In this document: piece after piece, positions 7,223 to 45,891 of the stretch
How the letters are laid out: each line of letters begins with the position of its first letter
How positions within the stretch are numbered: position 1 is the first letter of the stretch
Origin: a virus
IMG/VR virus record: IMGVR_UViG_3300045941_000323
Span: 1 to 49,464 of that record
Length of the DNA stretch: 49,464 nucleotides
Direction: 5' to 3' (one strand)
Notes under the pieces: model-generated
The model's input: the letters and a program-made list of their open reading frames with translations, nothing else
What the model was told of the DNA's origin: nothing
Databases searched by the model: none
Made by a program: the position numbers and the translations under genes

Positions 7223-8362
7223 TCAGTTGAGCAGCAGCGGCAGCATCGTCCGCAGATAATTCACGACGATATCGCCGACGTAGGAGCGCCGCGTCGTGCG
7301 GCCGCTGGCATGATCGAGGCCTGCCCGGGCCGCTTCCTGCCCTTCGCGGGCGCCGAGCAGGTCGAGCTGCACGCCGTGCGTCCGCCGCCAGGCGTGGGGC
7401 GACTGCCGCGAGGCCTCGGGGATCCCGGCCTTCTGCTGCAGCTCGCTGTGCAGCGTGAGGAAGTGGCGATAGCCGCAGGCCGCCGGCAAGATCGGCTCGT
7501 CGGCCGGCGGCTCGCCGCGGCATTGGCGCACGCAGGCCAGCAGCAGGCAGAGCTGCTGGTGCAGCAGGATCTCCGTGGCCTTGCCGGTCTTGACGATCTC
7601 GCCGGGGACCGCGAGCCAGGTGTCGCGGCCGCGGTGCTCGAGGTGCCGCCAGCGGAGCTCGATCACTGTGCCGGAGCGCAGGCCGGTGAAGTAGAACAGG
7701 GCCAGTCGCGTCTGCCACCACAGTTCGCAGGTGATCCAGGGCGGCAGCTCGGGCCGACTCATCAGCCTGGCCGCGGCCGCGATCTGCCGCGCTTGCTCCA
7801 CCGAAAACGGCGGCTTGGGCTCCCACTCGCTGGTGACGATCGGCACATAGGGCACCTCCTGCAAAATTCGCGCCCGGGCGTGGCTCGGATCGTAGCGCGG
7901 GCCGGCGGCGCGGATCAGCGTCGCCAGCCGCGTGCGATGCGTTTTGATTCGCTCGCTCCCCAGCGGCCAGTAGGAAGGATAATCGGTCAGCGGTCCGATC
8001 TTGTGCGACCGGCCGCGCGGGACGCCTTTGCAGCACCAGCCCCATTCGGGGAGCGTGCCGATGAAATCGATGCAGGCGTCGTCTGCCGTGAGGAGCAGCG
8101 GCGGATCGCCGGTGATCTGCTCCCAGTACCGGAGCAGCGTCTCGTAACCCTCGAACGTCGCAGACGCCGCCTGCCGCGGCTTGAGCACGGCATCGCAGAA
8201 CCAATTCTCGAAGAACTGCCGCAGCGTCCAGAGCAACCGCGGCTCGCGCTGGGACGCTTCCCGCTGCTCTTTGGTGAGGAGCCGCGGTCGATCCTCTTGC
8301 AGATCGGCGGCAAATAAGCGCAGCGCCGGCCGCGAGCCGGGTTCGTGGGACGTCGAGATCAT
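7223..8362 (-). CDS. int: tyrosine recombinase / phage integrase
   Basis: 379 residues. An N-terminal core-binding region (about 30-170) precedes the catalytic domain with the expected active site: R229 in T-G-L-R-S-G-T-V-I-E-L, a Lys around 258-261, H323 and R326 in S-P-H-A-W-R-R-T-H-G, H351 in L-D-H-A-S-G and nucleophile Y361. It would join attP to a host attB and, with an excisionase that I cannot identify, reverse the reaction. ATG at 8362 (M-I-S-T-S-H-E-P) starts where sequence becomes protein-like; upstream in-frame sequence is Cys/Arg-rich shadow. The attP-like tRNA fragment is about 0.8 kb away. Confidence 0.95.
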   Translation of the reverse strand: MISTSHEPGSRPALRLFAADLQEDRPRLLTKEQREASQREPRLLWTLRQFFENWFCDAVLKPRQAASATFEGYETLLRYWEQITGDPPLLLTADDACIDFIGTLPEWGWCCKGVPRGRSHKIGPLTDYPSYWPLGSERIKTHRTRLATLIRAAGPRYDPSHARARILQEVPYVPIVTSEWEPKPPFSVEQARQIAAAARLMSRPELPPWITCELWWQTRLALFYFTGLRSGTVIELRWRHLEHRGRDTWLAVPGEIVKTGKATEILLHQQLCLLLACVRQCRGEPPADEPILPAACGYRHFLTLHSELQQKAGIPEASRQSPHAWRRTHGVQLDLLGAREGQEAARAGLDHASGRTTRRSYVGDIVVNYLRTMLPLLLN

Positions 8363-8801: not shown

Positions 8802-9044
8802 TCAAGCGGCGTGGACTCGAATTTTTCTGAGGAAGTCCACAGATACCCCAAAAGCGTCGGCCATGGCGAAGAGTACCTCCACGCTCGGCAGCATGTGGCC
8901 GTTTTCAATCCGGCTCACATGTTCGCGGGCAATCCCGCACTTATCGGCCAGCTCCTGTTGAGACCAGCCCTTCGCCTCCCGCAATTCGCGGACGTTTTCT
9001 CCCACGATGCGCCGCAGCTCCGTCGTGTCGATCATTTCGTCCAT
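8802..9044 (-). CDS. XRE-family (Cro/CI-type) repressor
   Basis: 80 residues, one HTH_XRE domain: V-R-E-L-R-E-A-K-G-W-S-Q-Q-E-L-A, then C-G-I-A-R-E-H-V-S-R-I-E-N-G and V-L-F-A-M-A-D-A-F-G-V. There is no C-terminal peptidase domain, so SOS cleavage of the LexA/CI kind is not expected. Two starts are possible. ATG 9044 would give a leaderless mRNA if a TATCAT -10 at 9051-9056 is used, as for lambda cI from PRM; ATG 9035 has GGAG nine bases upstream. GTGA-N8-TCAC dyads flank the gene. It probably maintains lysogeny and autoregulates. Confidence 0.88.
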   Translation of the reverse strand: MDEMIDTTELRRIVGENVRELREAKGWSQQELADKCGIAREHVSRIENGHMLPSVEVLFAMADAFGVSVDFLRKIRVHAA

Positions 9045-9186: not shown

Positions 9187-9192
9187 AACCAG

Positions 9193-9228
9193 TGGAGGCG
9201 AAGGGGCTCGAACCCTCAACCTCAGCAT
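9193..9228 (-). other. attP candidate: 3' end of a tRNA gene
   Basis: Read on the minus strand, this segment has a T-arm (GAGGG, loop TTCGAGC, CCCTT), a 7-base acceptor strand CGCCTCC and discriminator A. No matching 5' half (GGAGGCG) or anticodon arm lies upstream, so this is a tRNA 3' fragment and not a tRNA gene. Tyrosine integrases commonly use such a fragment as attP, restoring the host tRNA on integration. The nearby integrase and repressor support this. Confidence 0.7.
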
Positions 9229-9288
9229 TGCGAACGTGACGGTGTCGGGCGGTAACGGTCGCGGGAAGTTTGCCGGCGAAGGTTTTTC

Positions 9289-9317
9289 TTGACAGCGGCC
9301 GGCGGCGGCCTGATGAT
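9289..9317 (+). promoter_or_regulatory. cargo promoter P1
   Basis: TTGACA (9289-9294), 17-base spacer, GATGAT (9312-9317), preceded by TTTTT and followed by GCGTCGAT. It drives the membrane protein gene starting at 9345. Almost the same string is present as P2 (43271-43243, minus strand), which argues that it is functional. Confidence 0.7.
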
Positions 9318-9344
9318 GGCGACGCGTCGATCGAGGAAGCTCTT

Positions 9345-9935
9345 ATGGTGTCTGGCGGCAGCCCAAATCCGTACGCTCCGACGGCCGGAGAGTCGCCGCC
9401 CAAGTCGCCCAGGCCATCGACCTGGTTGCTAGCGGGGACCGCGGCGGTCGCGGCGTTTCTCGGGCTGGCAGCCGGCTACCTCCTGGCGCGGCCGCAGGTG
9501 CTTCGCTTGCTGGCGGAAAACGAGGCGCTACGGATCGAGGTCGAAAAGGAAAGGCGCCGGGGCATGGAAGCCAGGGACGAGCTGGCCGAAGTCACCCAGC
9601 GGCTCCTGCGTGAGGAGTCGGAACGCCGCCGGTTGCCTGGCGAGGCGGTGACTCTGCTGATCGCGATGTCGAATCACAACGGCGGCGACTTCCTGGTGCA
9701 CGGCGAAGGGCTGGTTTACTTTGAAAAGGAATATGCCGATAAGTCCGACGCCCGGTCGGCGGCCCGATGGCACGCAGCAGTCGGAGAGTTGCAACGCCGC
9801 GGTCTGATCGACTTCATCGCCAGCCGCGACAACGGCACCGGCTACGGCCTCCGGTTCTATCGGCTCACGAAAGATGGTTTCGAAGTTGCGGATTCGCTGG
9901 CCCAGCGGCAGCCAACAGAGAAGGGGAGCCCGTAA
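9345..9935 (+). CDS. membrane-anchored coiled-coil protein (cargo gene)
   Basis: 196 residues. Starts M-V-S-G-G-S-P-N-P-Y-A-P-T, an N-P-Y-A-P-like opening I associate with planctomycete membrane proteins. One transmembrane segment (about 29-52) and a charged coiled coil (about 57-95) follow, then a winged-helix-like end (A-A-V-G-E-L-Q-R-R-G-L-I-D, R-F-Y-R-L-T-K-D-G-F-E-V). ATG 9345 has GAGGAAG five bases upstream. It is plus-strand with its own promoter P1, opposite to its neighbours: the plan of a prophage-expressed moron. Function unknown. Its 3' end overlaps the convergent gene by 79 bases. Confidence 0.78.
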   Translation: MVSGGSPNPYAPTAGESPPKSPRPSTWLLAGTAAVAAFLGLAAGYLLARPQVLRLLAENEALRIEVEKERRRGMEARDELAEVTQRLLREESERRRLPGEAVTLLIAMSNHNGGDFLVHGEGLVYFEKEYADKSDARSAARWHAAVGELQRRGLIDFIASRDNGTGYGLRFYRLTKDGFEVADSLAQRQPTEKGSP

Positions 9936-23622: not shown

Positions 23623-23686
23623 TCGTCAGCCGGCGGCGAACCTGCCGCCGGGATCCCGGAGCGAGGTTTCGCTCCGGCTGAGGTCA

Positions 23687-28322: not shown

Positions 28323-28324
28323 CG

Positions 28325-29001: not shown

Positions 29002-29045
29002 CCCATCTTCGCGCCAGTGGGCCACGTGGGCGGCCACGCGACGGG

Positions 29046-29156: not shown

Positions 29157-29410
29157 GCGTCGGCCTCGGGAGTAGGGCGGACCCAGGCATGGCCGCAGTC
29201 GTCGCAGATGCAGTACTGCTTGCTGCCAACGATGCGATAGACGCGCGTGCTGGTGTGATGCTCGCTGCGTGGGCAACGGCCGGCGTGGATCCGCTGCTTT
29301 TTCAGCGGCAGCCGGTTGTCGATCGCCGCCGGCGACTCGCTGCGAGCTGGCTGTTGGGCGACTTTGGCCGCTTTTGTCGGTACCTGTTTGCTTTTGTTGG
29401 ACGTCTTCAT
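29153..29410 (-). CDS. zinc-ribbon protein (Com-like)
   Basis: 85 residues. A basic N-terminal tail, then C-P-R-S-E-H-H-T-S-T-R-V-Y-R-I-V-G and Y-C-I-C-D-D-C-G-H-A-W-V, a zinc ribbon like the Mu Com type of RNA-binding translational regulators and other phage ribbons. Coupled to the large terminase gene in ATGA. It may regulate or recruit nucleic acid during packaging (inference). Confidence 0.7.
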   Translation of the reverse strand: MKTSNKSKQVPTKAAKVAQQPARSESPAAIDNRLPLKKQRIHAGRCPRSEHHTSTRVYRIVGSKQYCICDDCGHAWVRPTPEADA

Positions 29411-32107: not shown

Positions 32108-32187
32108 AGCCCTGCGCGGTTTCGGCCGCGTGGCGGTTAGGGGATCGCGCGCGGTTTGTACCCGCTGCGGTCCCCGTCTTGGGGCAA

Positions 32188-32388
32188 TCAATCCACCTGG
32201 CCCGCAAGCCAGGCGGTATATCGAATTAGGTGGACCGTGCCGTCGGCGTTCGTCGGAGCACCGGCGGCCAGGTCCTTCTCGACGTCGGCCGCGATGACCT
32301 TGCCGCCGGCGGCCGACAGGACGGTGGCGAGCTGCGGCACGGTCAGTGCCGCGGGGTTCATCTTCGCCGGCGGTTGCTGCTTGGGCAT
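32188..32388 (-). CDS. small protein paralogous to the terminase N-terminal module
   Basis: 66 residues: L-T-V-P-Q-L-A-T-V-L-S-A-A-G-G-K-V-I-A, then A-P-T-N-A-D-G-T-V-H-L-I-R-Y-T-A-W-L. I recall this 'TxPQLAxxLxAxGG...APxNxDGTxxLxxYAAWL' unit next to terminases of other phages. It aligns by eye with the N-terminus of the small terminase and may share its DNA or partner-binding role. Start ATG 32388 taken as the first in-frame Met of protein-like sequence. Confidence 0.75.
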   Translation of the reverse strand: MPKQQPPAKMNPAALTVPQLATVLSAAGGKVIAADVEKDLAAGAPTNADGTVHLIRYTAWLAGQVD

Positions 32389-32590
32389 TTGTAAAGGCGC
32401 TGCCTTGCAAGACTCACCACGGTTGCCAATCGTCCCGTCGGCTCGTGCCACACTTGATGTCCCGGTGGGAGGCCCGCGCATCACGGGTTGCGTCCAGTGG
32501 CCCATTCACGAGTTGTTCCAACAGCTCTCCAAAAGTGTGGCAACGGTACAGAGCTTTTCCTTTTCGTGGTGAGTCGTGCGAGACAGCGCG

Positions 32591-33961: not shown

Positions 33962-33969
33962 CTTATTTC

Positions 33970-33990
33970 AACTGTGAACTGTGAACTGCG
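33970..33990. repeat. heptamer repeat AACTGTG x3 upstream of methylase
   Basis: AACTGTG, AACTGTG and AACTGCG head to tail, nine bases upstream of the methylase start. The remainder of 33991-34233 holds A7 tracts and GGCCGGGCCCC-type GC-rich sequence; no gene is evident. ACAGCGGCCG occurs at 34150-34141 (minus), the string found in P1-P3. Confidence 0.8.
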
Positions 33991-34233
33991 AAAAAAACTT
34001 TCCGAAGCGCAAAAAAAGCGCAATCGCCAACTGGCGCGGCCGGGCCCCCCGGCGGGGAGGACCCGTTAATTCGTAGTGCGCCACGTGGCCACGCGTTGAG
34101 CGATCGCGAAGAGGCGAAGGTGATTCAAGCATGGAGAGATCGGCCGCTGTTGGGCCTGCTAATGCGCCATGCAAGATGGCCGTTTTTCGACGTGTTTACT
34201 GGACTTACGTCAACGCGGACTGTTCATAAGTCC

Positions 34234-34341
34234 TTATCGCCGGAAGATGGTGACTACTGTACGAGCGATCAAAGCGACCAACCATACGCACATCAGCAGC
34301 CCCGCTGCCGCCATCATCCATGGCGCACTCACAGCCAACAT
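34234..34341 (-). CDS. possible small membrane protein, 35 aa
   Basis: M-L-A-V-S-A-P-W-M-M-A-A-A-G-L-L-M-C-V-W, then L-V-A-L-I-A-R-T-V-V-T-I-F-R-R: one strong transmembrane helix with a basic end. The frame is open upstream for longer without a start near a good ribosome site, so the start is uncertain. Position after the thioredoxin-like membrane protein and peptidase raises a lysis (holin) role. Confidence 0.4.
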   Translation of the reverse strand: MLAVSAPWMMAAAGLLMCVWLVALIARTVVTIFRR

Positions 34342-34385
34342 CCACCAGCCTGCGAAGAGCTGGCGGATGCGACTGACGAACCGCT

Positions 34386-35633
34386 CTACTGGACCGGGAT
34401 CATCCCCTTCGCGAACTCCTCGAGCTTCGCGAGCAAGGCGGCGAATTGCTCGTCGTTCAGGAATGTCGGCTTGCCTGTCGACTTCCGGTAGTTGCGGAAC
34501 AACTTCAGGCCCAGGCCGATTAGGCCGTAGATGCCTCCGCCCCCGGCCAGCGCCATCAGTACGCTGACTATCAGCGTCGTCAGCGATACGCCGGGCGTCG
34601 CCGGCGCCACCGCCGCGGGCGTCTTCTGCTTCGCTTCCTCCTCGGCCTTCTTCTTCGCCGCGGCCTCTTCCTGCGCCCGCTTCAGGTCGGCGATCTGCCT
34701 GGCCAGGGTCACCTGCTGAAACGCCGCCGCCGCTTCGTCCAGCGTCGCCTGCTTGCTCACCTGCGACAGCAAAAACTCCGCGTCGCATTCCGGGCAGGCC
34801 GCCTTGATCTGCTCGACCGTTGCCGCCACGCGCGGCGGAATGATCGTCTGCGGAAACACGAGCCCCGGCGTCTCCGGCGGATTGGTCGGCGCCAGTACAA
34901 AAGGGGGCGGGCTGCCGCCGGCCTCCTGCTGGATGTCGCCTTGCCGCCGCGCGAGCATTCGCACGCGGCGTAGCGAATCAACATACTTGCCGAGCCCGCT
35001 GGCCATCGCCGCCGTCAGCTTTTCGGGATCGCCGTCGTAACCGCTCGACATGAACGCGATCTCGGCGTGCTTGCCAAAAGCGCCGGTAATCGGCGGCTGC
35101 ACAATCAGCGTGGGAAATTCGTCGATCTTTCGCTTGATGAACCGCTCGAGCTTGCGGGCCCAGTCGCGGCCGACGTCGCCGTCGTACCGCAGCTCGTGAA
35201 AATGCATGTGGCTGGCCGGCGTGGAGATCAGCACGCCCTGGCGGTCTTCGACCTCGACCCAATCGCGGTAGGCGCCGGCGAGTAGATCGGATTTCAATCG
35301 CTGGCAGGCCTGGCAGCCGCCGCGTGTCAGCACGGTGAGGTGCCACTTGTGGCTGTCGTCGGCCGGCGTCTGCGCCGCCTGGGCGATCAGGTCCTCCCCT
35401 TCATCGGCCCGGGCCTGGCCGTCGATGTGCTCGACCATGTTGCCGCGCATGGCGATCTCGCGCCGGGCCGAGCTGGGCACGTCGGTCTCGTCAGCTCCAG
35501 CGATGGCCACCAAGGCCAGGCCTCCGATCAGCGCAGCGGCCGCGGCCGCCACGAACCATAGAAAGCCACTCGTTCGCGAGCGCCGCCGCTCCAGCAGATC
35601 TCCCAGCGTCATCTCGAATTGATCGCGCTTCAC
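34386..35633 (-). CDS. membrane-anchored thioredoxin-like protein
   Basis: 415 residues. N-terminal transmembrane segment (about 23-45: F-L-W-F-V-A-A-A-A-A-A-L-I-G-G), then a periplasm-facing domain with a thioredoxin-type C-x-x-C (G-G-C-Q-A-C-Q-R-L-K, about 108-113) and I-V-Q-P-P-I-T-G. A second pair C-P-E-C is near 280; a coiled coil (A-Q-E-E-A-A-A-K-K-K) and a second transmembrane helix (about 350-370) follow. A thiol-disulfide role at the envelope is plausible. I do not recognise a characterised homologue. Start has no strong alternative. Confidence 0.65.
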   Translation of the reverse strand: MKRDQFEMTLGDLLERRRSRTSGFLWFVAAAAAALIGGLALVAIAGADETDVPSSARREIAMRGNMVEHIDGQARADEGEDLIAQAAQTPADDSHKWHLTVLTRGGCQACQRLKSDLLAGAYRDWVEVEDRQGVLISTPASHMHFHELRYDGDVGRDWARKLERFIKRKIDEFPTLIVQPPITGAFGKHAEIAFMSSGYDGDPEKLTAAMASGLGKYVDSLRRVRMLARRQGDIQQEAGGSPPPFVLAPTNPPETPGLVFPQTIIPPRVAATVEQIKAACPECDAEFLLSQVSKQATLDEAAAAFQQVTLARQIADLKRAQEEAAAKKKAEEEAKQKTPAAVAPATPGVSLTTLIVSVLMALAGGGGIYGLIGLGLKLFRNYRKSTGKPTFLNDEQFAALLAKLEEFAKGMIPVQ

Positions 35634-35679
35634 GGCATCACCTCCCAGGGGATTTGTCCCTCGTGTGTGTCATTTAATG

Positions 35680-36285
35680 TCACTGCCACCAGGTCGTCGG
35701 CTCGGGGGGGCTGGCTGGCGCCGGCCCGTCATACACCACGATCCATGGTCCGCTGGCCAGGTGCAGGCGGCGAAAATCCGCCTCGCTATACCAGTCGATC
35801 TTGTGCGTGCTGTTGTTGTTGCAGACGCCCCACGGCTTGGCCTCGCCGGGCCGGTAGGCGTACAGCGTCTGGAAGTGCCTAGTGCCGGCACCGATGGCGC
35901 AAAAGCGGTTCGTCGCCGCGCAGTACTTCATCCACGGAAACGTGTAATCGGCCCCGGTGACGTTGAAGATCCGCATGCCCCGCGAGCGGGCATAGCCGGC
36001 CACCCGTGATGGGCTGGAGCCGCCGCGGACCGCCGGCCCGTAGGCAGAGTCCCACAGCAGCGTCGCGCCGTTCTCGTCGCGATGCCACCAGCCCTGCATG
36101 CCGTTGGAGCATTGCACGCAACTTCCGTCTGGGTTGCGGTAGTTGGCGCGGACGTCGGGATCGAGATCCATGCTCTGCGGCAGCTCATCAGCGGAGCAAG
36201 TGCGAGCGACCAGCAGGCCGCCCAGCGCCACGTAAAGAAAAGCCATCCAGAACAAATCGGCCAGCGTGCGACGGAGGTTGTGCAT
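35680..36285 (-). CDS. exported papain-like cysteine peptidase-like protein
   Basis: 201 residues. An N-terminal signal or anchor segment (F-W-M-A-F-L-Y-V-A-L-G-G-L-L-V-A), then N-P-D-G-S-C-V-Q-C-S-N-G-M-Q (candidate nucleophile Cys), R-V-A-G-Y-A-R-S-R-G, H-F-Q-T-L-Y-A-Y (candidate His) and V-C-N-N-N-S-T-H-K-I-D-W-Y-S (candidate Asn/Asp). The order Cys-His-Asn fits papain-like/C39 peptidases. I recall this 'SCVQCSxG...HFQTL...CNNNS' family from phages, without assigned role. It may be the endolysin or a virion maturation peptidase. It starts two bases after the upstream stop (TGAGGATG). Confidence 0.6.
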   Translation of the reverse strand: MHNLRRTLADLFWMAFLYVALGGLLVARTCSADELPQSMDLDPDVRANYRNPDGSCVQCSNGMQGWWHRDENGATLLWDSAYGPAVRGGSSPSRVAGYARSRGMRIFNVTGADYTFPWMKYCAATNRFCAIGAGTRHFQTLYAYRPGEAKPWGVCNNNSTHKIDWYSEADFRRLHLASGPWIVVYDGPAPASPPEPTTWWQ

Positions 36286-36287
36286 CC

Positions 36288-36722
36288 TCACGATTCTGGC
36301 GGCCGCTGAGAGCTGATTCCCTTTCCCGCGGCCGCCTCGGCGGCGCAGGCGACGCACGGCCAGACGCGCACCAGGCCGTGCCGGGGACACCGCCTGGGTG
36401 CACGGATCCCCTTGGGCCGAAATTCCTGGCCGGCATCGATCATGTGCTGATATCGGCGCCAGACGCTTTTGTAGCTGACGCCTCTCACCAGCTCGGCGAT
36501 CCGCCGCAGCGTATGTCGCGACTCGGCCAGCCGCCGGCGAATGGCGGCGTCTTTCTGTTTGGGGAGCTCGCGGCGCCGCCGGCGGGCAATACGATGTCGG
36601 ACCGCCAGGCGATGGACGGTGCTCTTGCTGCGCCTGATTGTGCGGCCAGCCTGGTCGAGCGTCTTGCCCTTGGCCAGCAGGGACCGCAGGCGCGCCAGCG
36701 TGCGCGCCGTCTCGGGTTTCAT
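36288..36722 (-). CDS. HTH regulator with C-terminal Cys/His motif
   Basis: 144 residues, very basic. About 10-50 (L-A-K-G-K-T-L-D-Q-A-G-R-T-I-R-R-S-K-S-T-V-H-R-L) is a helix-turn-helix of the resolvase/MerR-like sort; a second HTH lies about 70-95. The tail C-P-R-H-G-L-V-R-V-W-P-C-V-A-C may bind zinc. A leader hairpin (36747-36766) with a short T run sits 25 bases upstream. Probably a transcription regulator of the peptidase or late genes. Confidence 0.68.
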   Translation of the reverse strand: MKPETARTLARLRSLLAKGKTLDQAGRTIRRSKSTVHRLAVRHRIARRRRRELPKQKDAAIRRRLAESRHTLRRIAELVRGVSYKSVWRRYQHMIDAGQEFRPKGIRAPRRCPRHGLVRVWPCVACAAEAAAGKGISSQRPPES

Positions 36723-36746
36723 TTGCTAGCACCGCCGCACGACAAA

Positions 36747-36766
36747 GGGCCGCCTCAATGAGGCCC
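36747..36766 (-). terminator. leader hairpin upstream of the HTH regulator
   Basis: On the minus strand GCCTC-ATT-GAGGC with outer GGG/CCC pairs and TTTGT after it, 25 bases before the ATG at 36722. It may attenuate the regulator's transcript. Confidence 0.35.
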
Positions 36767-36861
36767 GGGCCAGGTCGCGCGGCGATCCTTACAAAGCGCG
36801 GCGATAGCGGCGAGCGGCAAAAACGTCCTGAGTTTGCCGCCTCTTCTGATATAGTGACGCC

Positions 36862-36962
36862 GAGCGTCCCGCTTGGCAACGAATTTTCACCTTGGCCGGC
36901 TGCGATCCACCTGGGGCATCCCTAGCGGCGACTTCAGGGCCGGCTCGCAGCCGGCCTTTTTT
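36862..36962 (+). ncRNA. candidate small RNA with intrinsic terminator
   Basis: A plus-strand unit of about 100 bases lying between two minus-strand genes. It has a TATAGT -10 (36850-36855) with a weak CTGAGT -35 at 16 bases, and ends in a strong terminator (36938-36962). No open frame with a ribosome site is present. GGCCGGCTGCGA at 36894-36905 is perfectly complementary to TCGCAGCCGGCC at 36945-36956, so a 12-bp long-range stem competes with the 8-bp terminator stem. Transcription is inferred, not shown. Confidence 0.5.
36938..36962 (+). terminator. strong rho-independent terminator
   Basis: GGCCGGCT-CGC-AGCCGGCC followed by TTTTTT, plus strand. No plus-strand protein gene lies upstream, which is why a small RNA is proposed. 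Its last T overlaps the stop codon of the minus-strand gene at 36962. Confidence 0.85.
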
Positions 36963-37180
36963 CATTGGCCGGCCGGCATGAAATCGACGTAGAACTGCCT
37001 GCCCTCTTCGAACTGCCGCGCGGCGGCCTCGTTGATCGTGCTGAGCGTGATGCTGCCGCCCGGGGTGTACTTGTAAAACTCGTCGTTTTCCGGACTTCCA
37101 CCGGTTACTGGCGAGAGCTTGATGCAGAATCCACCGTTCTCTGGTTGAACGGAATCGACGCGGAATTTTGCACGGACCAT
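36962..37180 (-). CDS. conserved small phage protein, 72 aa
   Basis: M-V-R-A-K-F-R-V-D-S-V-Q-P, then L-S-P-V-T-G-G-S-P-E-N-D-E-F-Y-K-Y-T and G-S-I-T-L-S-T-I-N-E-A-A, F-Y-V-D-F-M-P-A. This 'PVTGGSPENxxFxKYTPGGxIxLSTxNxxAAxQF' protein is one I know as a frequent uncharacterised phage protein. Beta-rich; the run of conserved Gly/Pro/Asn suggests a small barrel. Function unknown. Confidence 0.82.
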   Translation of the reverse strand: MVRAKFRVDSVQPENGGFCIKLSPVTGGSPENDEFYKYTPGGSITLSTINEAAARQFEEGRQFYVDFMPAGQ

Positions 37181-37199
37181 GGCATTTCTCCTGTGGTGG

Positions 37200-37445
37200 T
37201 TATCTGTGCCCCATGAATTGAGCCGCCAGTTTGCGCCGGGCCCGCCGCCCGGCCTTGGTCCGACTGGTCGGCGTCCGCAGCCCGGGAGCGGGAGCGATGA
37301 TCTCCGACAGCGGCTGCCGAATCCGAATCTCCGGCGAGAGACTGCCGGCGACGATCTGACGGACGCCGATCAGGGCGGCTCGATTGCCCAGCAGTGCGGC
37401 CCGGGCAAGCGCAGCGGGGACGGTGATTGTGCGCGGCTCACCCAA
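37200..37445 (-). CDS. hypothetical basic protein, 81 aa
   Basis: Opens with TTG at 37445, overlapping the preceding stop by eight bases (TTGGGTGA), then P-R-T-I-T-V-P-A-A-L-A-R-A-A-L-L-G-N-R and an Arg/Lys-rich end. Uncertain start. May bind nucleic acid; no family recognised. Confidence 0.5.
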   Translation of the reverse strand: MGEPRTITVPAALARAALLGNRAALIGVRQIVAGSLSPEIRIRQPLSEIIAPAPGLRTPTSRTKAGRRARRKLAAQFMGHR

Positions 37446-37710
37446 AGCAAAACTCCCGCTGCGCGTCGATATGGATCTCCAGGGCGGGCCCGCTGTAGCC
37501 GCTCTCGTCGGTGCGGGTGCCGCAGCGAATTCGCCGGCCGCGGCGGCGGAGGACGGCGACGACCGCCTTGATCAGCGGCGCCGGCCACAGCCGCACATCG
37601 ACGATCAGCCACTGCGTCGGCGACGGGAGCGTGGCCTCGGCGCGGGCAATCGTCGTCTCGATCCGCTCCACGGCGGCAGACAGCAGCTCGCGCGCGTCGG
37701 TCCCGTCCAT
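37438..37710 (-). CDS. hypothetical protein, 90 aa
   Basis: M-D-G-T-D-A-R-E-L-L-S-A-A-V-E-R-I-E-T-T-I, then W-L-I-V-D-V-R-L-W-P-A-P-L-I-K-A-V-V. A compact alpha/beta protein that starts immediately after the preceding stop. Function unknown. Confidence 0.65.
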   Translation of the reverse strand: MDGTDARELLSAAVERIETTIARAEATLPSPTQWLIVDVRLWPAPLIKAVVAVLRRRGRRIRCGTRTDESGYSGPALEIHIDAQREFCFG

Positions 37711-38025
37711 TTATGCGGCCTTCGAGATCGTCAGTGTCGGTTCTTGTTCCCGCTCGGCCATCACCTTATCGGCGGCCGCTTTTCCCATATCCCTCGTGTA
37801 GAGCGCCTTCCAGTCGACGCGCTTGCGCACCATCTCAACCAATAGCGTGAAGGCCCCGATGACCAGGCAGCGGGCCTTGCCCCCGAGTTTCTGCACCAGA
37901 GGCGTCCATTCGTCCTCTTGTTCGCGCTGCCGCTTGGCCAGGTCGTTGGCTTCGCTGCGCAGCTTGTCGATCTTGGCCTGGCGGGCCTGGTATTCCTCCA
38001 GCTCGGCGATCGTCGGCTTGGCCAT
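37711..38025 (-). CDS. hypothetical coiled-coil protein, 104 aa
   Basis: T-I-A-E-L-E-E-Y-Q-A-R-Q-A-K-I-D-K-L-R-S and N-D-L-A-K-R-Q-R-E-Q form a coiled coil; a hydrophobic helix L-V-I-G-A-F-T-L-L-V-E-M-V follows. First gene of the leftward cluster, divergent from the sigma-factor operon. Function unknown; it stands by the promoter region shared with the phage sigma gene. Confidence 0.68.
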   Translation of the reverse strand: MAKPTIAELEEYQARQAKIDKLRSEANDLAKRQREQEDEWTPLVQKLGGKARCLVIGAFTLLVEMVRKRVDWKALYTRDMGKAAADKVMAEREQEPTLTISKAA

Positions 38026-38055
38026 GCACGCCTCGGGCAGATTTGTAAAGCAAGA

Positions 38056-38084
38056 TTGACAAAAGCGCCGCCGCCAGACATGAC
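38056..38084 (+). promoter_or_regulatory. candidate promoter of the sigma-factor operon
   Basis: TTGACA (38056-38061), 17-base spacer, CATGAC (38079-38084), upstream of the plus-strand sigma gene in the divergent gap 38026-38174. The -35 is exact; the -10 is weak, which suggests an activator or host sigma specific to early phase. Spacing equals that of P1, P2 and P3. Confidence 0.45.
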
Positions 38085-38174
38085 CTGGCGGCAGCGGGCT
38101 CGAAAGGACTTTGCAACCGGGAACATCTTGGGCGGCGCTGCGCCGCTGATTCCCTTTCCCGCCGGCGGGAGGGA

Positions 38175-38882
38175 ATGGGAATCAGTCAGTCAGCTCGCGG
38201 CAGACTGGCAGGCATGGACCTGGACTACCTGCGCCGCTGCCGCATCCGCCTGCCGCGAGCCGAAGAGGCGCGGCTAGCCCGGGCGATGCGGCACGGCGAC
38301 CAGGACGCCCGCCGGCGGCTCATCGAATCGCAGCTCCCGCTGGTGGTCAGCATCGCCCGCCGCTACGTCCGCCCGCACGTGCCGCTGGACGACCTCTGCC
38401 AGGTCGGCGCCATGGCGCTGATCCGCTGCCTGACGAAATTCCGGCCGCGCAAGGGGCGCCTCTCCACCTTCTGCCACCAGCAGATCCTGTGGTCGCTCGA
38501 CCACTTCGTCGCCAAGAACAGGTCGCTCGTCTCGCGGCCGGCCAACCGCCCCGCTCCCCACCTCTCGGCGGCCTGGGACGCAGCGCTCGACGTGGTGTCG
38601 CTCGATGAGGCGCCCGTGAAGCAGATCGCCTGTGCCGACGAGTCGGGCGAGGTCCTGGATGCCGATCAGAACGAGCTCCGCTGGCGGCAGCTCGAGGCCG
38701 CCGCGTTCGCGCGACTCACGCCGCAGCAGGCGCTGGTCCTCCGCGGCCGCCTCGACGGCCTGCTGCTCCGCGAGCTGGCGGCCGAGATCGGGGTTTCGAA
38801 AGAACGCGTCCGCCAGATCTACCAGGCGGCGATCGCACGCCTGCAGGCCGAGCTGATCGGCTCCGCGGGGGCCAAGCCATGA
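38175..38882 (+). CDS. sigma-70 family RNA polymerase sigma factor
   Basis: 235 residues. Region 2 (about 35-115): L-P-L-V-V-S-I-A-R-R-Y-V, P-L-D-D-L-C-Q-V-G-A-M-A-L, F-R-P-R-K-G-R-L-S-T-F-C. Region 4 (about 180-230): L-T-P-Q-Q-A-L-V-L-R-G-R, A-A-E-I-G-V-S-K-E-R-V-R-Q-I-Y-Q-A-A-I. Regions 1.1 and 3 are lacking, as in group 3/4 factors. It could redirect host polymerase to late promoters of this phage. The start is ambiguous: ATG 38175 (GGGAGGGA, very close) or ATG 38214. It opens the plus-strand operon; the next gene overlaps in ATGA. Confidence 0.9.
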   Translation: MGISQSARGRLAGMDLDYLRRCRIRLPRAEEARLARAMRHGDQDARRRLIESQLPLVVSIARRYVRPHVPLDDLCQVGAMALIRCLTKFRPRKGRLSTFCHQQILWSLDHFVAKNRSLVSRPANRPAPHLSAAWDAALDVVSLDEAPVKQIACADESGEVLDADQNELRWRQLEAAAFARLTPQQALVLRGRLDGLLLRELAAEIGVSKERVRQIYQAAIARLQAELIGSAGAKP

Positions 38883-39796: not shown

Positions 39797-41392
39797 ATGG
39801 CCCACAAACTCCGTCACGGGCGCTGCTGCTGCGGATGCGTCATTGCGACGAACAATTTCCAGTCGAATCTCGACAACATGACCGGCACGGGCACGATTGC
39901 TGGCGGAGTGCTAACTCTCGACGCTGGTGAGCAAGAGGTTTTCAACGAGGCGGCGGCCAGTGAAGCCGATGGGCAACATCTGCTCACTTACGCGGCTACG
40001 GAGGACGCCACTGCCGCCGTGCGGCTGAAGCTGGCCCGTGTGGATGATGACACCTACCTCTTTGGCGAGTTCGGGGTTGATGCTGGCGAGGGCACGATTC
40101 GCCTGGGACAGCGCAGCGGCGGCAGCGACATCTATCTGACGGATGCGGAGACGATTTCGGACACCGGCAGTCACCTGACCGCCGCCCACGAGTTACTGCT
40201 GTGCTGGCAGCCGGGAGACGAGCAGCCGCCTGACACGTTGAGCTTCGTCACGCCTGTGGATGCGATTCTTAGCTCAACCGGCTGGATGGACCCCGATAAC
40301 ATGCTGCTGTTTGACGGCTCTGTCGCGCTTTACGACCTGGGCGCAGCGTCGGTCAGCAACCAGTTGATCGTTTCGTTCAAACCACCGCCAGTGCCGCCTG
40401 GTGCGACGCTCGACGGGTTTGTCGTTGCTTTGCACGGCAGCAGTGCCGGGGCATCGCCCGTGACGGCGACTTGCCAGTTTTCAATCGATCCGTACTCATC
40501 GGACGACCGCGGGCCAGTCGATATGACGGTACTTGGCCCCTACGTTTTCGGCGCAGACGACGACCCGTGGGACTTCGGCGGCACGGCGGTGCAGTTCAAT
40601 GGCGCCACGTCGGTGACGGCCATGTTTGTGTTTTTCAACGACGATCCGATGAACCCGGCGCAGCTCGCGGCGGATTTTATTGGCCTGGTTGTCTACGGCA
40701 CGACGGCCGGCAGGGAGCAGGGCCTGCTGCAATTCAGGATCAGGAACAACGGCACCGGGCAGTATCAGTGCATCAGCAGCCGGGCAGCGTATTCGACGGG
40801 GCTGCAAGCCGGGCTGCGATCGGAAACGGGCACCTGGGACTTCACTGAGGCCACGTTTTCCTATCTGGATTCGGAGGAGCATCCGCAGTGCCCAGACTGC
40901 TGCGAGGTCCCGCCCGACTGCGACAGCAACGCTTGCGACGAGGACAACCAGCCGCCGGGCGAGATGGTCGTCAACGCGGGATCCTGGAGCCTGAGCGCTG
41001 GTACTCGCAACTGCAACGGCTGCACTGCGTTTGGCGGCGACTACATCGTCAGCACGAGCATGTCGGCGTCGCAGTCGGATTTCGCCACGCATTGCCAGTG
41101 GAAGTACGTGAACGAGATCGCTGGGGACTGCAGCGGCCAGGACTACAAGGAGGCAGTCGTTTTGGCCCTCATCGACAACCAAGATGGGACACACAAGTGG
41201 ACGGTTCTCATCCAGTTCGCGTCTGACAACGAAAGACTGCGACAAGTCACCTACGAGTCCGATGACATCGACAATGGTCCGTGCATGGCGATGCCCGTTA
41301 CGCTCACCAAAATTTTGGACATACAGACCGGGACGCCGCCCGACGTGTGCCCCGGCACTTCGCCCGGCACCATATCGATCGACGTGCCATGA
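39797..41392 (+). CDS. Cys-rich receptor-binding-like virion protein
   Basis: 531 residues. It opens G-R-C-C-C-G-C-V-I-A-T-N-N-F-Q-S-N-L-D; the first half is beta-rich with lectin-like strands (T-G-T-I-A-G-G-V-L-T-L-D-A-G, Y-L-F-G-E-F-G-V-D), then C-P-D-C-C-E-V-P-P-D-C-D-S-N-A-C hinge, then a second beta domain. The Cys pairs suggest metal or disulfide stabilisation outside the cell. Likely a fibre, tip or head-surface protein. Two-domain layout with Cys-rich hinge occurs in planctomycete-associated proteins I recall, without function. Confidence 0.62.
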   Translation: MAHKLRHGRCCCGCVIATNNFQSNLDNMTGTGTIAGGVLTLDAGEQEVFNEAAASEADGQHLLTYAATEDATAAVRLKLARVDDDTYLFGEFGVDAGEGTIRLGQRSGGSDIYLTDAETISDTGSHLTAAHELLLCWQPGDEQPPDTLSFVTPVDAILSSTGWMDPDNMLLFDGSVALYDLGAASVSNQLIVSFKPPPVPPGATLDGFVVALHGSSAGASPVTATCQFSIDPYSSDDRGPVDMTVLGPYVFGADDDPWDFGGTAVQFNGATSVTAMFVFFNDDPMNPAQLAADFIGLVVYGTTAGREQGLLQFRIRNNGTGQYQCISSRAAYSTGLQAGLRSETGTWDFTEATFSYLDSEEHPQCPDCCEVPPDCDSNACDEDNQPPGEMVVNAGSWSLSAGTRNCNGCTAFGGDYIVSTSMSASQSDFATHCQWKYVNEIAGDCSGQDYKEAVVLALIDNQDGTHKWTVLIQFASDNERLRQVTYESDDIDNGPCMAMPVTLTKILDIQTGTPPDVCPGTSPGTISIDVP

Positions 41393-41811
41393 TGAGCAGT
41401 TTGTGCGTGCCCAACAACGACGGTCTGTGCGCTGTGTGCGGCCGTCCTCTCTCCGCCAAGTATCCGGACGCGAAGCGCGTCTGCCGACTACCGCCAAACG
41501 AACCGCAACGGGGACCTGGCACCGAATTGAAAGGCATCTTCCGCCGGCTGGGCTTCTCTGCGAAGTCCGGCTGCGGCTGTGAGAAGCTCCGGCTGGAGAT
41601 GGACCGCCTCGGCGTCACCGGCTGCCGGCAGAATTTTGATTTGCTTGTGGGCAAGCTGAGGAAGAAGTATCACCAGACGACGAAAGGCGAGCGTGCTCGG
41701 GCCGCAGCGGCGGCGCTGTTTACTGGATTGGCATTCCATCTCGATTGGGCAGACCCGATTCCCTCACTACTGCGGCTGGCAATCGACCGGGCGGCTACTG
41801 CTGAATCTTGA
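41389..41811 (+). CDS. Cys-rich phage protein, 140 aa
   Basis: L-C-V-P-N-N-D-G-L-C-A-V-C-G-R-P-L, then G-P-G-T-E-L-K-G-I-F-R-R-L-G, G-C-G-C-E-K and V-T-G-C-R-Q-N-F-D-L-L-V-G. I know this 'GPGTELxxLLxxLGxxxxxGCGCxxxxxxMDxxGxxGC' protein from other phages and planctomycete genomes. It is a small zinc-binding-like protein, unknown role. The start overlaps the upstream stop (ATGA). Its end overlaps the convergent pilin-like gene by 17 bases. Confidence 0.75.
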   Translation: MMSSLCVPNNDGLCAVCGRPLSAKYPDAKRVCRLPPNEPQRGPGTELKGIFRRLGFSAKSGCGCEKLRLEMDRLGVTGCRQNFDLLVGKLRKKYHQTTKGERARAAAAALFTGLAFHLDWADPIPSLLRLAIDRAATAES

Positions 41812-42895
41812 CGGTTCGCTCCAGAACGTGAACGACCTCGGGAACTATCGTCACGTCGCACGGCTCATTGGTGCCGGCTGGTGCCAGCAAGTCGCAATGC
41901 CAGTCCGCACCGATCAGGGTGACGTTCTGCTGGCCGCTGCTGGCCTCGTCTGAATCGGAGACCTTGTACCAGCCGAAGTATTGGAGCGTGCCAGTGCTGC
42001 TCGGGAGCGTGCGGCCCAGCATCACCCATGCGCCGGATTTCAAGTCGAGCGGTTTGCCGAACGCAGGCCGCTCTGTAATCGTCACTTCCCCGCCGCCGAA
42101 TCCGTCCGCGTGCCAGTCTGTCGCTTGAATCTCCGCAGTGACCTCGGGCCACGGATGCGGTTCTGGGCCGCCGCTGCCGGGGACGTGCAGACCTTCTCCC
42201 GACCGGTTCCGGCAAACGACGATGGACAGTACGTACTCATCGCCAATCACAGGGACCAGCGGATTGTATTTCGGCACCAGAGTTGCGAACCAAGTCAATC
42301 GCCCTTCCTCTTGGCGGCGACCAGCATCGCTGCCGACCTTTGTGTAAAGCTGCACGGCGGGCAGCGCGTTATTGTCTGGCCGTTCGTAAATCAACTGGTC
42401 CTCAATCCGAAACACCTTGTCGGCTTGCAGGTAGGCCATCGGAGCCGCGGCACCGTTCGTCAGGTTCAGCCGCACCATGCGGCCGGCGTGCGGAGCTTCG
42501 GCGGCATCAACGGCAGGGAACCAAGACCAGCGGGCGCTATTGTCCGTCCCAGCGGCTGTGTCCTCTTGGCGATTGTGCGCCCAGCCCATCGGGTCGATGC
42601 AGAAAGCGTATCCGTAAAGCGGAGTGCCGGCCTGCTGGAACGTGACTGGAACCACGACTGGCACCGGCGGCGAAGCGGTCCAGTCCATCGCAATCCACCT
42701 GTCGCGGCGGTTCATGCCCTCAACCTCGAAAGTGGCGACTGCTGACTCCCCGCCGCCTTGCGACAGGCGGGCATTCTCGCCCTTGCGGATATTGGCACCG
42801 GACATCGTGAGGGTCGCCAGCACCGCCAGCAGCCCCACGGAAAACACCACGATAGCGAATAGGACTTCCAAGAGGGTGACGCCGCGACGTTTCAT
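41795..42895 (-). CDS. PilV-like type IV pseudopilin (cargo gene)
   Basis: 366 residues. Type III signal M-K-R-R-G/V-T-L-L-E-V-L-F-A-I-V-V-F-S-V: cleavage after G5, mature Glu5 present, then a hydrophobic helix (6-30). The rest is a large beta-rich domain (P-V-V-V-P-V-T-F-Q-Q-A-G-T-P-L-Y-G-Y). Such proteins are prepilin-peptidase substrates that join type IV pilus or type II secretion pseudopili in the inner membrane. A phage copy could modify host pili, twitching, uptake or phage receptors. It overlaps the previous gene (ATGA) and lies in a three-gene cargo operon from promoter P2. A structural virion role is unlikely. Confidence 0.85.
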   Translation of the reverse strand: MKRRGVTLLEVLFAIVVFSVGLLAVLATLTMSGANIRKGENARLSQGGGESAVATFEVEGMNRRDRWIAMDWTASPPVPVVVPVTFQQAGTPLYGYAFCIDPMGWAHNRQEDTAAGTDNSARWSWFPAVDAAEAPHAGRMVRLNLTNGAAAPMAYLQADKVFRIEDQLIYERPDNNALPAVQLYTKVGSDAGRRQEEGRLTWFATLVPKYNPLVPVIGDEYVLSIVVCRNRSGEGLHVPGSGGPEPHPWPEVTAEIQATDWHADGFGGGEVTITERPAFGKPLDLKSGAWVMLGRTLPSSTGTLQYFGWYKVSDSDEASSGQQNVTLIGADWHCDLLAPAGTNEPCDVTIVPEVVHVLERTVKIQQ

Positions 42896-43077
42896 CGGTT
42901 GCTCGCTCCTATCAACAGAACCGTTGCAACGGAAAAAAGACCGACGCCCCATAGCAGCGGAACATCACTGGCTGGGATCTGACGAGCCGCGGCAAGTAGC
43001 TGGCCGCCACACCCCAGCCCGACACCTGCCGCCGTGACCACCACGAGGAGAGACGCCAAAGAGAATTGCAGTTTCAT
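42892..43077 (-). CDS. 61-aa two-helix membrane protein (cargo operon)
   Basis: M-K-L-Q-F-S-L-A-S-L-L-V-V-V-T-A-A-G-V-G, then a second helix L-L-W-G-V-G-L-F-S-V-A-T-V-L-L-I. The opening F-S-L-x-x-L-L-V-V-V-T is one I associate with planctomycete inner-membrane proteins. Overlaps both neighbours (ATGA). Probably a membrane partner of the pilin. Confidence 0.72.
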   Translation of the reverse strand: MKLQFSLASLLVVVTAAGVGLGCGGQLLAAARQIPASDVPLLWGVGLFSVATVLLIGASNR

Positions 43078-43211
43078 ACGGCCCTATTCGCTGCCCGCCT
43101 ACCAGGAAAGCTGCCGAGCATGAACAAGCCGGCACCCAATCCAATCGCCAGTGCAGTGATCACGACGAGCAACTGCGCAAGCGAGAACTGCCACCTGCCC
43201 GGTGATCGCAT
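43074..43211 (-). CDS. 45-aa single-helix membrane protein (cargo operon)
   Basis: M-R-S-P-G-R-W-Q-F-S-L-A-Q-L-L-V-V-I-T-A, then L-A-I-G-L-G-A-G-L-F-M-L-G. One transmembrane helix with the same F-S-L-A-x-L-L-V-V motif as the next gene, which suggests a duplicated pair. First gene after promoter P2. ATG at 43211 with GGAGGG in the leader. Confidence 0.68.
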   Translation of the reverse strand: MRSPGRWQFSLAQLLVVITALAIGLGAGLFMLGSFPGRRAANRAV

Positions 43212-43242
43212 GGAAAGAAACCCTCCAAATCGACGCGCCTCC

Positions 43243-43271
43243 ATCATCGGGCAGGCGGCGGCCGCTGTCAA
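43243..43271 (-). promoter_or_regulatory. cargo promoter P2
   Basis: TTGACA (43271-43266), 17-base spacer, GATGAT (43248-43243). With flanks TTTTTC upstream and CGCGTCGAT downstream it matches P1 (9289-9317) over roughly 45 bases. Drives the pilin-like operon. Confidence 0.72.
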
Positions 43272-43272
43272 G

Positions 43273-43308
43273 AAAAAGGCCCATGGCGGGAATCGGAACC
43301 GCCATGGG
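43273..43308 (-). terminator. terminator before the pilin cargo operon
   Basis: On the minus strand CCCATGGCGG and CCGCCATGGG form a perfect 10-bp stem (9-base loop), followed by CC and T5. It ends transcription from the early operon and from P3; its T run is followed at once by the P2 -35, insulating the cargo operon. Confidence 0.75.
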
Positions 43309-43354
43309 CTGCGTCGATCAGGGGCAGGGGGCAGAGCCGCCCCGCGCAAAGACC
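43273..43354 (-). ncRNA. candidate small RNA upstream of the cargo operon
   Basis: Promoter P3 (43389-43361) and the terminator at 43308-43273 bracket about 82 bases with no ribosome site or open frame. The transcript would contain a GGGGC-N6-GCCCC hairpin followed by the terminator stem. Could be a regulator RNA, or a leader processed from the early operon. Inferred. Confidence 0.42.
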
Positions 43355-43360
43355 GCTGGC

Positions 43361-43389
43361 ATTATAGGGGCGGAAGCGGCCGCTGTTGA
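43361..43389 (-). promoter_or_regulatory. promoter P3 with consensus -10
   Basis: TCAACA (43389-43384), 17-base spacer, TATAAT (43366-43361), minus strand. The sequence at the -35/spacer junction, ACAGCGGCCGC, is the same as in P2 (and ACAGCGGCCG in P1), indicating common ancestry or a shared binding site. The rest of 43309-43511 holds no gene that I can support. Confidence 0.6.
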
Positions 43390-43511: not shown

Positions 43512-43766
43512 TCAAGAGGCAATCATCGGATCCCGCACCGCCGGCGACTGATGCACCGTCCACTCGAGGCGCCTGTTCCAGACGGCGGCGATCTCCGCCG
43601 GCGAGAAGTAGGGCGCCTGGCCGAACAGCCCCACGCAGGCCCGGCAGCCGCTGCAGGAGACGAACCACTCCCACGCCCCGCGGAGGACGTGCGATCGCAC
43701 CTTCACGTACGCCGGCTCGCCGCCGCAGAAGGGGCACGACTTGAGCGGAGGCAGGTGCTGGGTCAT
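43512..43766 (-). CDS. Lar-type zinc-finger protein
   Basis: 84 residues: L-K-S-C-P-F-C-G-G-E-P-A-Y, C-S-G-C-R-A-C-V-G, then A-E-I-A-A-V-W-N-R-R. The 'PCPFCGG...CxxCxA...AxxxWNRR' pattern is that of Lar-like restriction-alleviation proteins and their many phage relatives. In Rac, Lar modulates type I restriction; here the role is unproven. It begins directly after the previous stop (TAG-ATG) and is last in the early operon. Confidence 0.82.
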   Translation of the reverse strand: MTQHLPPLKSCPFCGGEPAYVKVRSHVLRGAWEWFVSCSGCRACVGLFGQAPYFSPAEIAAVWNRRLEWTVHQSPAVRDPMIAS

Positions 43767-44241: not shown

Positions 44242-44739
44242 TCACTTCTTCACGACGTTGACCTTCATGTCCTCGACGCCCTTGTAACCCTCCTCGCCCT
44301 CGCGGGTCAGGAAGCCGAGCTTCACCAGCTCGCCGAGCTCGCGGTAGACGTTGGCCTTGCCCGGGTCGCCGCCGGTCCGCTTCAGCTCGGTCCAGACCGA
44401 GTAACCTTTTTTCGTCTCGGCGAAGAAGTTGTCGCGGATCATCAGGGCCAGGCGGCCGCGGAGCGACTTGCCCTCGGCGGCGATCGTGACGGTCTCGACC
44501 TCGACCTCGAGCTCCGGTTGCTTCAGCAGCACCTTGAGCAGCGCCGGCGCCTCCTTGGCCAGGCGGGCCTTGAAGCGCTGGTAGAGCTGCTCTTCGTCGA
44601 TGGGGCCTGCCGCTGGCGGCGAGTTGTCAGGAGCGGCGACGGTCCGCCGGATCTCGTCGATCTTTTGCGTCATCGGCATCTGCCAGGTCTCGAGCAGCTC
44701 GATGACTCGATCGAGCTTCGCTTCGGCGGCGGCGGACAT
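44242..44739 (-). CDS. possible independent internal start: winged-helix protein
   Basis: ATG at 44739 (M-S-A-A-A-E-A-K-L-D-R-V-I-E-L-L) has AGGAGGA seven to eight bases upstream, a stronger ribosome site than most genes here have. The 165-residue product starts with a coiled helix and ends in a winged helix and V-E-D-M-K-V-N-V-V-K-K. It may be translated both alone and as the end of the ATPase fusion. Confidence 0.5.
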   Translation of the reverse strand: MSAAAEAKLDRVIELLETWQMPMTQKIDEIRRTVAAPDNSPPAAGPIDEEQLYQRFKARLAKEAPALLKVLLKQPELEVEVETVTIAAEGKSLRGRLALMIRDNFFAETKKGYSVWTELKRTGGDPGKANVYRELGELVKLGFLTREGEEGYKGVEDMKVNVVKK

Positions 44740-45891
44740 GAATTCTTCCTCCTGATCGGGTGAGTGGTGAGTGGTGAGTGGTGAGTGGGGCGGCACAGGC
44801 GTCCAATTGGTGGCGAGGGTCTCGGGATTTTCAAAGTTGTCCGCGGCGACAATCGCCTCCGCGGTCTCTGCGCCTCCGCGGTTCACTTGCTCGGCCGGCG
44901 GCCGCGGCGGCGGTGGCGCCGGCAAATGCTCCCTGGCCACGTCGCGGGCCTCGAAGTTTTCCAGCCACGGCGGCCAGACGTAGGTCTTGATCGCGTGCCG
45001 GCCCCAGCAGGCGTAGAACTGCCCCAGCTCGAGCGTGGCGACGTCCTCCGCCTTGGGGCGCTTGATGCCGGCGGGGATCATCTGGATCGTCCGCTTCAGC
45101 TCGTTCAGCTCGCGCTGCACGCCGAGGATCCAGACGCTGGCCGCCTGGCGCACGACCGTATCGACGCCGGCGATGTCCTGCGAGTCGCAGAGGAGAAAAT
45201 TCCCCAGGGCGGCGCCCTTGCGGGCCATGGCGATCGCCTCGTCCTTGGCCGGGGCCGACCGGTTCCGCGGGGCGAACTCCCAGGCCTCCGGAAAGACGGT
45301 CAGCACCTGGTGCTCGTGACGGTTGATCTGCTCGAGGCACGCCCGGATGACCAGCGCCTGGAGCTGCCCGCCGACGCCGGCCAGGTCCATCACGTTCAGC
45401 CCGGGCTCGAGCCGCAGAACGTCGGTTGCGGCCAGGGCCTGCATCTCCGGCACGACCAGGTCGAGATACTCGCGGATCAGCGTGTAGGCCTCCTCGTTCC
45501 GGCCACCTTTCGATTTGCCGAGCAGCTTCACGACGTTGCTCCGCACGCCGGCCAGCGACGTCGCTCCCTTGGCGGCCTGGATCAGCCAGAACCGCTCGTA
45601 CTTCATCGACCGCTGGCCCAAAGCCGAGGCGAGGATCGTCTCGACCAGCCGCCAGTGGATCGGCTGCTGGCCTTCGCGGGGCAGGAACGGACGGATGCGG
45701 CGGCCGTCGAACCGCTCGCCGCGCTTGGTGATGAAGGCGATCGCCCGCTGGCCGCTCCGCTCGACGATGGCCCGCAGGGTCGTGGTCTTGCCCGAGAGCT
45801 GCGTCTGGCCGGTGACGAACGTGTGCGCCAGCGGGATTTTTACCTCGGCGCCAGTGCCGACTTCGAAGCCAAGGGGGATCGTGGTGGTCAT
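44242..45891 (-). CDS. HerA/FtsK-like ATPase fused to a C-terminal winged-helix protein
   Basis: 549 residues. Residues 20-310 form a P-loop ATPase: Walker A G-Q-T-Q-L-S-G-K-T-T at 28-37, L-N-V-M-D-L-A-G-V-G, a Walker B-like V-F-P-E-A-W-E-F. HerA-type motors translocate or unwind DNA. About 320-383 is a linker encoded by intergenic-type repeats (NRGGAETAEA and PPHSPLTTHHSP). Residues 385-549 look like a separate small protein with a winged helix (V-Y-R-E-L-G-E-L-V-K-L-G-F-L-T-R-E), whose Met at 44739 has AGGAGG. Two neighbouring genes were probably joined in frame. Role in replication, packaging or exclusion unknown. Confidence 0.8.
   Translation of the reverse strand: MTTTIPLGFEVGTGAEVKIPLAHTFVTGQTQLSGKTTTLRAIVERSGQRAIAFITKRGERFDGRRIRPFLPREGQQPIHWRLVETILASALGQRSMKYERFWLIQAAKGATSLAGVRSNVVKLLGKSKGGRNEEAYTLIREYLDLVVPEMQALAATDVLRLEPGLNVMDLAGVGGQLQALVIRACLEQINRHEHQVLTVFPEAWEFAPRNRSAPAKDEAIAMARKGAALGNFLLCDSQDIAGVDTVVRQAASVWILGVQRELNELKRTIQMIPAGIKRPKAEDVATLELGQFYACWGRHAIKTYVWPPWLENFEARDVAREHLPAPPPPRPPAEQVNRGGAETAEAIVAADNFENPETLATNWTPVPPHSPLTTHHSPDQEEEFMSAAAEAKLDRVIELLETWQMPMTQKIDEIRRTVAAPDNSPPAAGPIDEEQLYQRFKARLAKEAPALLKVLLKQPELEVEVETVTIAAEGKSLRGRLALMIRDNFFAETKKGYSVWTELKRTGGDPGKANVYRELGELVKLGFLTREGEEGYKGVEDMKVNVVKK
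44761..44788. repeat. heptamer repeat TGAGTGG x4 inside the ATPase linker
   Basis: Four TGAGTGG units within the coding region, translated on the minus strand as P-H-S-P-L-T-T-H-H-S-P. Beside it, 44855-44890 matches the GCGGAGGCGCAGAG-type host repeat. Both are typical of gene junctions elsewhere in this genome. Confidence 0.9.

Follow-up and report, generated by a model that had tools for sequence, protein, structure and literature searches.

A pseudopilin-homologue operon, possibly for lysogenic conversion, in a phage with a probable planctomycete host

The DNA analysed here (the window) has 49,464 bases and makes up one entire virus record. Three minus-strand open reading frames span positions 43211 to 41795 and encode products of 45, 61 and 366 aa, each pair joined by an ATGA overlap, at the coordinates that a first-pass annotation of this DNA had given. 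Going 5' to 3' along the minus strand, one meets a promoter-like sequence (P1), a terminator, a promoter (P2), the 45-aa protein, the 61-aa protein and the 366-aa pilin. At its stop the pilin gene shares 17 bases with the end of a convergent plus-strand reading frame that finishes at 41811. The features of the locus are as follows.

43361..43389, minus strand: promoter-like P1, TCAACA-17-TATAAT, before the terminator; ACAGCGGCCGC is common to P1 and P2
43273..43309, minus strand: intrinsic terminator directly before P2, with an 11-bp stem and a U tract
43243..43271, minus strand: promoter P2, TTGACA-17-GATGAT, sigma-70-like by consensus match, predicted to drive the operon
43229-43277, minus strand: 49-bp block containing P2, 43/49 identical to 9283-9331
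43074..43211, minus strand: first gene of the operon; encodes a small 45-aa membrane protein with a single hydrophobic segment and the QFSLAQLLVVITA motif
42892..43077, minus strand: second gene, coupled by ATGA to the gene on either side; encodes a small 61-aa membrane protein with two hydrophobic segments and the QFSLASLLVVVTA motif
41795..42895, minus strand: minor pseudopilin, 366 aa, class III signal MKRRG/VTLLEV; homologue of the fourth pseudopilin of a planctomycete cluster

The N-terminus of the 366-residue protein, MKRRG/VTLLEVLFAIVVFSVGLLAVLATL, matches the Pfam N_methyl family PF07963 (E = 9e-6, 25.5 bits against a cut-off of 21.2), which bears out the earlier claim of a complete prepilin signal, and it is the sole N_methyl match in the 49-kb record. 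The short basic leader, Gly at -1, Glu at +5 and hydrophobic helix that mark prepilin-like proteins are all present. The label "PilV-like" holds for the first 30-odd residues, which are the part that the PilV and GspI names fit. Both equivalog cut-offs are missed, that for PilV (TIGR02523, 24.8 against 52.2 bits) and that for GspI (TIGR01707, 16.9 against 44.35 bits), and by these profiles "PilV" is simply the nearest name. The predicted structure (mean pLDDT 68.9, pTM 0.71) opens with a 51-residue N-terminal helix, after which come beta-rich domains, as in pilins. In fold searches neither a pilin nor any other fold matched significantly: no Foldseek hit reached E <= 0.001, and the best VIA Z was 7.7, for a C-terminal beta-rich region. 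The description of the protein as foreign to phage structure is fair, because the PHROGs gave no structural match.

Planctomycete genomes, reached through a DUF1559 query, yielded full-length chromosomal relatives of the pilin, the outcome that the proposed homology search had been meant to look for. One is from 'Candidatus Anammoximicrobium' (36% identity over pilin residues 4-365, E = 7e-28) and another from genome G363 (E = 1e-29). Identity to the two nearest relatives is 34-37%, and 36-37% in a three-way alignment. An 11-sequence alignment, 25-35% identical end to end, contains 24 invariant columns; invariance was counted with the phage protein included and therefore shows that this protein does not depart from the other sequences. 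A profile search recovered full-length family members from 12 of 392 planctomycete genomes; its remaining matches were mostly to the N-terminal helix alone.

In the loci of full-length matches that were opened, the homologue is the last of a run of pseudopilins and in most cases the fourth of four; the exceptions are G004, which shows two pseudopilins, and 'Candidatus Anammoximicrobium' (G007), whose contig starts inside the run. In G349, the one case checked for GspF, a GspF gene (E = 3e-58) lies directly before the run, and in both G007 and G349 the next reading frame after the homologue is GspK/PilX-like. Sequence comparison places the phage pilin as a full-length homologue of the fourth pseudopilin in a planctomycete cluster of GspF, four pseudopilins and a GspK/PilX-like gene. 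In the tree it pairs with the 'Candidatus Anammoximicrobium' copy (support 93/88), on a long branch of 2.65 changes per column. Because the relatives lie in pseudopilin clusters, one of them after GspF, the target may just as well be a type II secretion-like pseudopilus as a pilus; sequence alone fits both, and either may be the case.

Mobile elements gave a different picture. Pattern scans of IMG/VR viral contigs (with the single sequence, the three-sequence alignment and the N-terminus) found no pilin relative, although such scans need short exact patterns that distant viral relatives could escape. INPHARED phages and PLSDB plasmids contained no significant relative. The same was true of genome contigs searched with the single pilin sequence, probably because the patterns were too strict; the search of the planctomycete phylum then found the relatives described above. 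Partial loci of kin phages, which are distant and not syntenic at the operon position, carried no pilin or FSL gene, and their one pattern match (L005) was without a pilin signal by eye. The two neighbours of the operon, 39797-41392 and 44242-45891, had no match in INPHARED phages. The proposal that the unit is cargo agrees with a pilin not found in other phages and with a cargo-like architecture.

The 45-aa and 61-aa proteins are related to each other, with 15/23 identical residues in the N-terminal membrane segment (E = 1e-8 for the pair), and do share the motif attributed to them. The further claim, that this motif is seen in planctomycete membrane proteins, is weakly backed: 1.56 Mb of planctomycete DNA gave a single clear case (RFSLRSLLILM), and 149 genomes gave no match below E = 0.06. 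The suggestion that the unit was captured from the host thus divides: the pilin belongs to a planctomycete chromosomal pseudopilin family, and a host origin of the small proteins is weakly indicated. Neither small protein has a significant match in Pfam, the PHROGs, NCBIfam or PADLOC. A defence-system reading of the operon was also tried and rejected, PADLOC giving no match for the operon. The small-protein motif QFSLAxLLVVxT resembles the prepilin helix GFTLVELLVVI minus Gly-1 and Glu+5; this likeness is speculation, since the Pfam N_methyl profile does not match the motif.

Third-position GC (GC3) is 0.74 in the pilin gene and 0.58-0.67 in the small genes, against 0.83-0.92 in most phage genes measured, and spans 0.58-0.78 across the operon and an isolated gene at 9345-9935. 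The neighbour at 39797-41392 is likewise lowish (0.77), and composition is for this reason not decisive.

A terminator followed by a promoter does precede the operon, as first annotated. The terminator, GCCCATGGCGG-N9-CCGCCATGGGC-CTTTTTCTT (43309-43273), forms a hairpin in the computed fold, and a promoter scan gave two sites in the 3-kb region against 0.4 expected. The P2 hexamer GATGAT is an imperfect match, scored against the sigma-70 consensus, from which the host's sigma-factor preference may differ. Of two features looked for in morons, a promoter of their own separated from upstream phage transcription is present, by consensus matches, as this terminator-promoter pair, and a downstream terminator was not found on the minus strand just after the pilin (after 41795). 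As a separate observation, P1 runs into a strong terminator about 80 nt on (43275-43361, minus strand), an arrangement that could give a small RNA or an attenuator; Rfam has no match in the window.

The 49-bp block containing P2 recurs once in the window, where the copy scores 68 and everything else 32 or less; searches of 199 planctomycete genomes and of viral contigs did not turn it up. The copy lies in the following region.

9283..9331, plus strand: second copy of the P2 promoter block, upstream of the isolated 9345-9935 gene
9345..9935, plus strand: isolated single-TM protein P0004, 196 aa, NPYAPT N-terminus, behind the second promoter-block copy; moron-like
9189..9221, minus strand: tRNA 3'-end-like stretch GGTTGAGGGTTCGAGCCCCTTCGCCTCCACTGG, candidate attP, not called a tRNA by ARAGORN
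8802..9035, minus strand: CI/Cro-like HTH regulator, near the integrase
7223..8362, minus strand: tyrosine integrase, suggesting a temperate lifestyle

The P0004 gene begins about 120 bases from the tRNA-like stretch and adjoins the regulator and integrase. Relatives of P0004 were absent from viral contigs, and 49 genomes gave one weak match. Two isolated membrane-protein units with one promoter type fit the idea of lysogenic-conversion genes.

The record also carries a terminase, a portal and a protease-capsid fusion, which together with the tyrosine integrase and the CI/Cro-like regulator indicate a tailed, temperate phage. The fusion is a single 869-aa reading frame (23687-26296, minus strand) matching both head maturation protease and major head protein families. 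The two contig ends (1-245 and 48960-49464) belong to the same 12-bp tandem repeat, whose unit is CGGCCGAACCGA. This suggests that the genome is circular and was cut within the repeat, and also that a repeat-rich protein extends across the join. A long inverted repeat stands beside the candidate attP, and neither the candidate attP nor a host tRNA was matched in 19 planctomycete genomes. The phage probably has a planctomycete host, judging by sequence kinship: a provirus-like contig in a planctomycete genome (G204:C19) carries capsid (40%), portal (41%) and terminase (29%) homologues, which support this host without proving it.

Several other genes of the record deserve mention. A small protein at 4880-5074 (minus strand) reads like CsrA (MLVLSRKRDEQIMIGDDIQITVI...) and has a homologue on the same provirus-like contig. 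A DNA methylase (PF01555) at 32591-33961 (minus strand) also has a weak ParB N-terminal domain match below the cut-off. A sigma-70-family factor at 38214-38882 (plus strand) heads the plus-strand gene run that converges on the pilin operon. On the operon's other side, 43512-43766 (minus strand) matches the restriction alleviation protein Lar (PF14354) above the cut-off, and 44242-45891 (minus strand) encodes a P-loop-type ATPase that is conserved in nine other viral contigs (best segment 49-75% identity) and weakly matches the defence protein MADS mad8 (E = 5.5e-7).

Neither a prepilin peptidase (Peptidase_A24) nor an assembly ATPase (T2SSE) is encoded in the record, nor does it hold a second N_methyl match; the pilin must therefore rely on host machinery. 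The explanation we favour, at a probability of roughly 0.55, is that the operon is a lysogenic-conversion (moron-like) unit that places a variant minor pseudopilin into a host filament. The pilin gene would have been captured or descended from the fourth pseudopilin gene of a planctomycete GspF/four-pseudopilin cluster and would be expressed from its own sigma-70-type promoter, insulated by the terminator from upstream phage transcription. The host prepilin peptidase would cut the product after Gly5 and methylate it, and the protein would be inserted through its N-terminal helix and become part of the host's own filament, the minor-pilin (tip/initiation) complex being the likeliest place. In that position it may replace or compete with the host copy, or shift the ratio of minor to major subunits. 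The number of filaments, their dynamics or their tip chemistry would then change, and with these adhesion, secretion or sensitivity to phages that use the filament. The pair of small membrane proteins is presumed to help or inhibit the same membrane step.

Analogies for such effects come from other systems. Overexpressed minor pilins change pilus dynamics, and minor-to-major stoichiometry controls these dynamics in Vibrio cholerae (PMC13249403). In Pseudomonas, a phage protein that disables type IV pili leads to superinfection exclusion (PMC8764522; PMC11436027). A bolder proposal, which we regard as conjecture with rather long odds, is that the phage remodels the host filament with its own minor pseudopilin plus two pilin-like, uncleavable peptides that tune or poison assembly, giving surface conversion or superinfection exclusion by subunit replacement.

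That no sister phage carrying the operon was found counts against lysogenic conversion by a variant pseudopilin, and weighs in favour of a neutral capture, in which a host pseudopilin gene acquired by illegitimate recombination is passing cargo with no role between phage and host. The operon is known from one record, kin phages are without it in the stretches seen, and the pilin sits on its long branch. Against this, the frame is full length and the family's conserved columns are retained, although identity to the host copies known is about 36%. Such retention is a sign of long purifying selection, some of which may have acted in an unsampled host. The unit also has its own upstream promoter and terminator, and the same promoter block serves a second unit. 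Neutral capture is accordingly unlikely, yet still deserves weight. That the operon's presence is an artefact, a host fragment joined into a phage contig by chimeric assembly, is a much poorer prospect. It would suit a single record and a second, 99.98% identical IMG/VR record (L162, over 20487-38838) that ends at 38838, short of the operon. The operon is nonetheless interior, with genes having viral homologues on its right and a sigma-factor module on its left; no chromosomal cluster seen has its arrangement, a second copy of its promoter block lies elsewhere in the record, and both contig ends lie in one tandem repeat, as for a circular genome.

Two further readings assign the operon to the phage's own lytic or structural functions. 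The small membrane proteins could be a holin/antiholin-like or other lysis pair to which the pilin is incidental, as their tiny size, their one and two hydrophobic segments and their translational coupling would allow; we consider this improbable, given that the operon holds no endolysin, that they are co-transcribed with the pilin, share a motif and have their own promoter, that neither PHROGs nor Pfam gave a holin match, and that other membrane-protein candidates lie at 34.4-36.3 kb. The pilin itself could be a fibre-like virion part with a pilin-like N-terminus, next to a convergent neighbour (39797-41392) that could be a tail-type protein, and pieces of it weakly resemble viral fibres in Foldseek. 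All of those matches are insignificant, though, a class III signal exports a protein to the inner membrane, and the full-length homologues are chromosomal pseudopilins of secretion-type clusters, not virion proteins, making this the most far-fetched of the alternatives.

Phages that alter host pili are known from Pseudomonas and act mostly through small inhibitors, and both planctomycete filaments and planctomycete phages are little studied. An intact minor filament subunit on a probable planctomycete phage would differ from such inhibitors, and through its gene one could study the function of the conserved four-pseudopilin cluster and its possible use as a phage receptor. In the part of the literature that was searched, we found no description of a minor pseudopilin of the planctomycete-cluster type carried by a phage; phage-borne pilin-like genes as a kind are already known, as PHROG 3433 'pilin' attests.

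Compared with known systems, the phage pilin shares its class III signal, length class and invariant columns with the fourth pseudopilin of the planctomycete cluster, for example those of 'Ca. Anammoximicrobium' (G007:C65) and Blastopirellula marina (G001:C1). Unlike the cluster member, it stands alone, without GspF, other pseudopilins or a GspK-like gene, and it follows two small membrane-protein genes behind a phage-borne promoter. To PilV and GspI it is alike in the N-terminal 30-odd residues and not in the rest. PHROG 3433 'pilin', classed under moron, auxiliary metabolic gene and host takeover, and other prepilin-like PHROGs illustrate that phages can carry pilin N-termini; the PHROG 3433 profile does not match the window pilin (P0001), whereas GspG-like host pilins do match it. 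The outcome may be like that of PfsE of Pf4, gp05 of D3112 and Aqs1 of DMS3, with altered pili or superinfection exclusion (PMC8764522, PMC11436027). Those three are inhibitors of assembly or regulation, whereas the window pilin would be a subunit of the filament.
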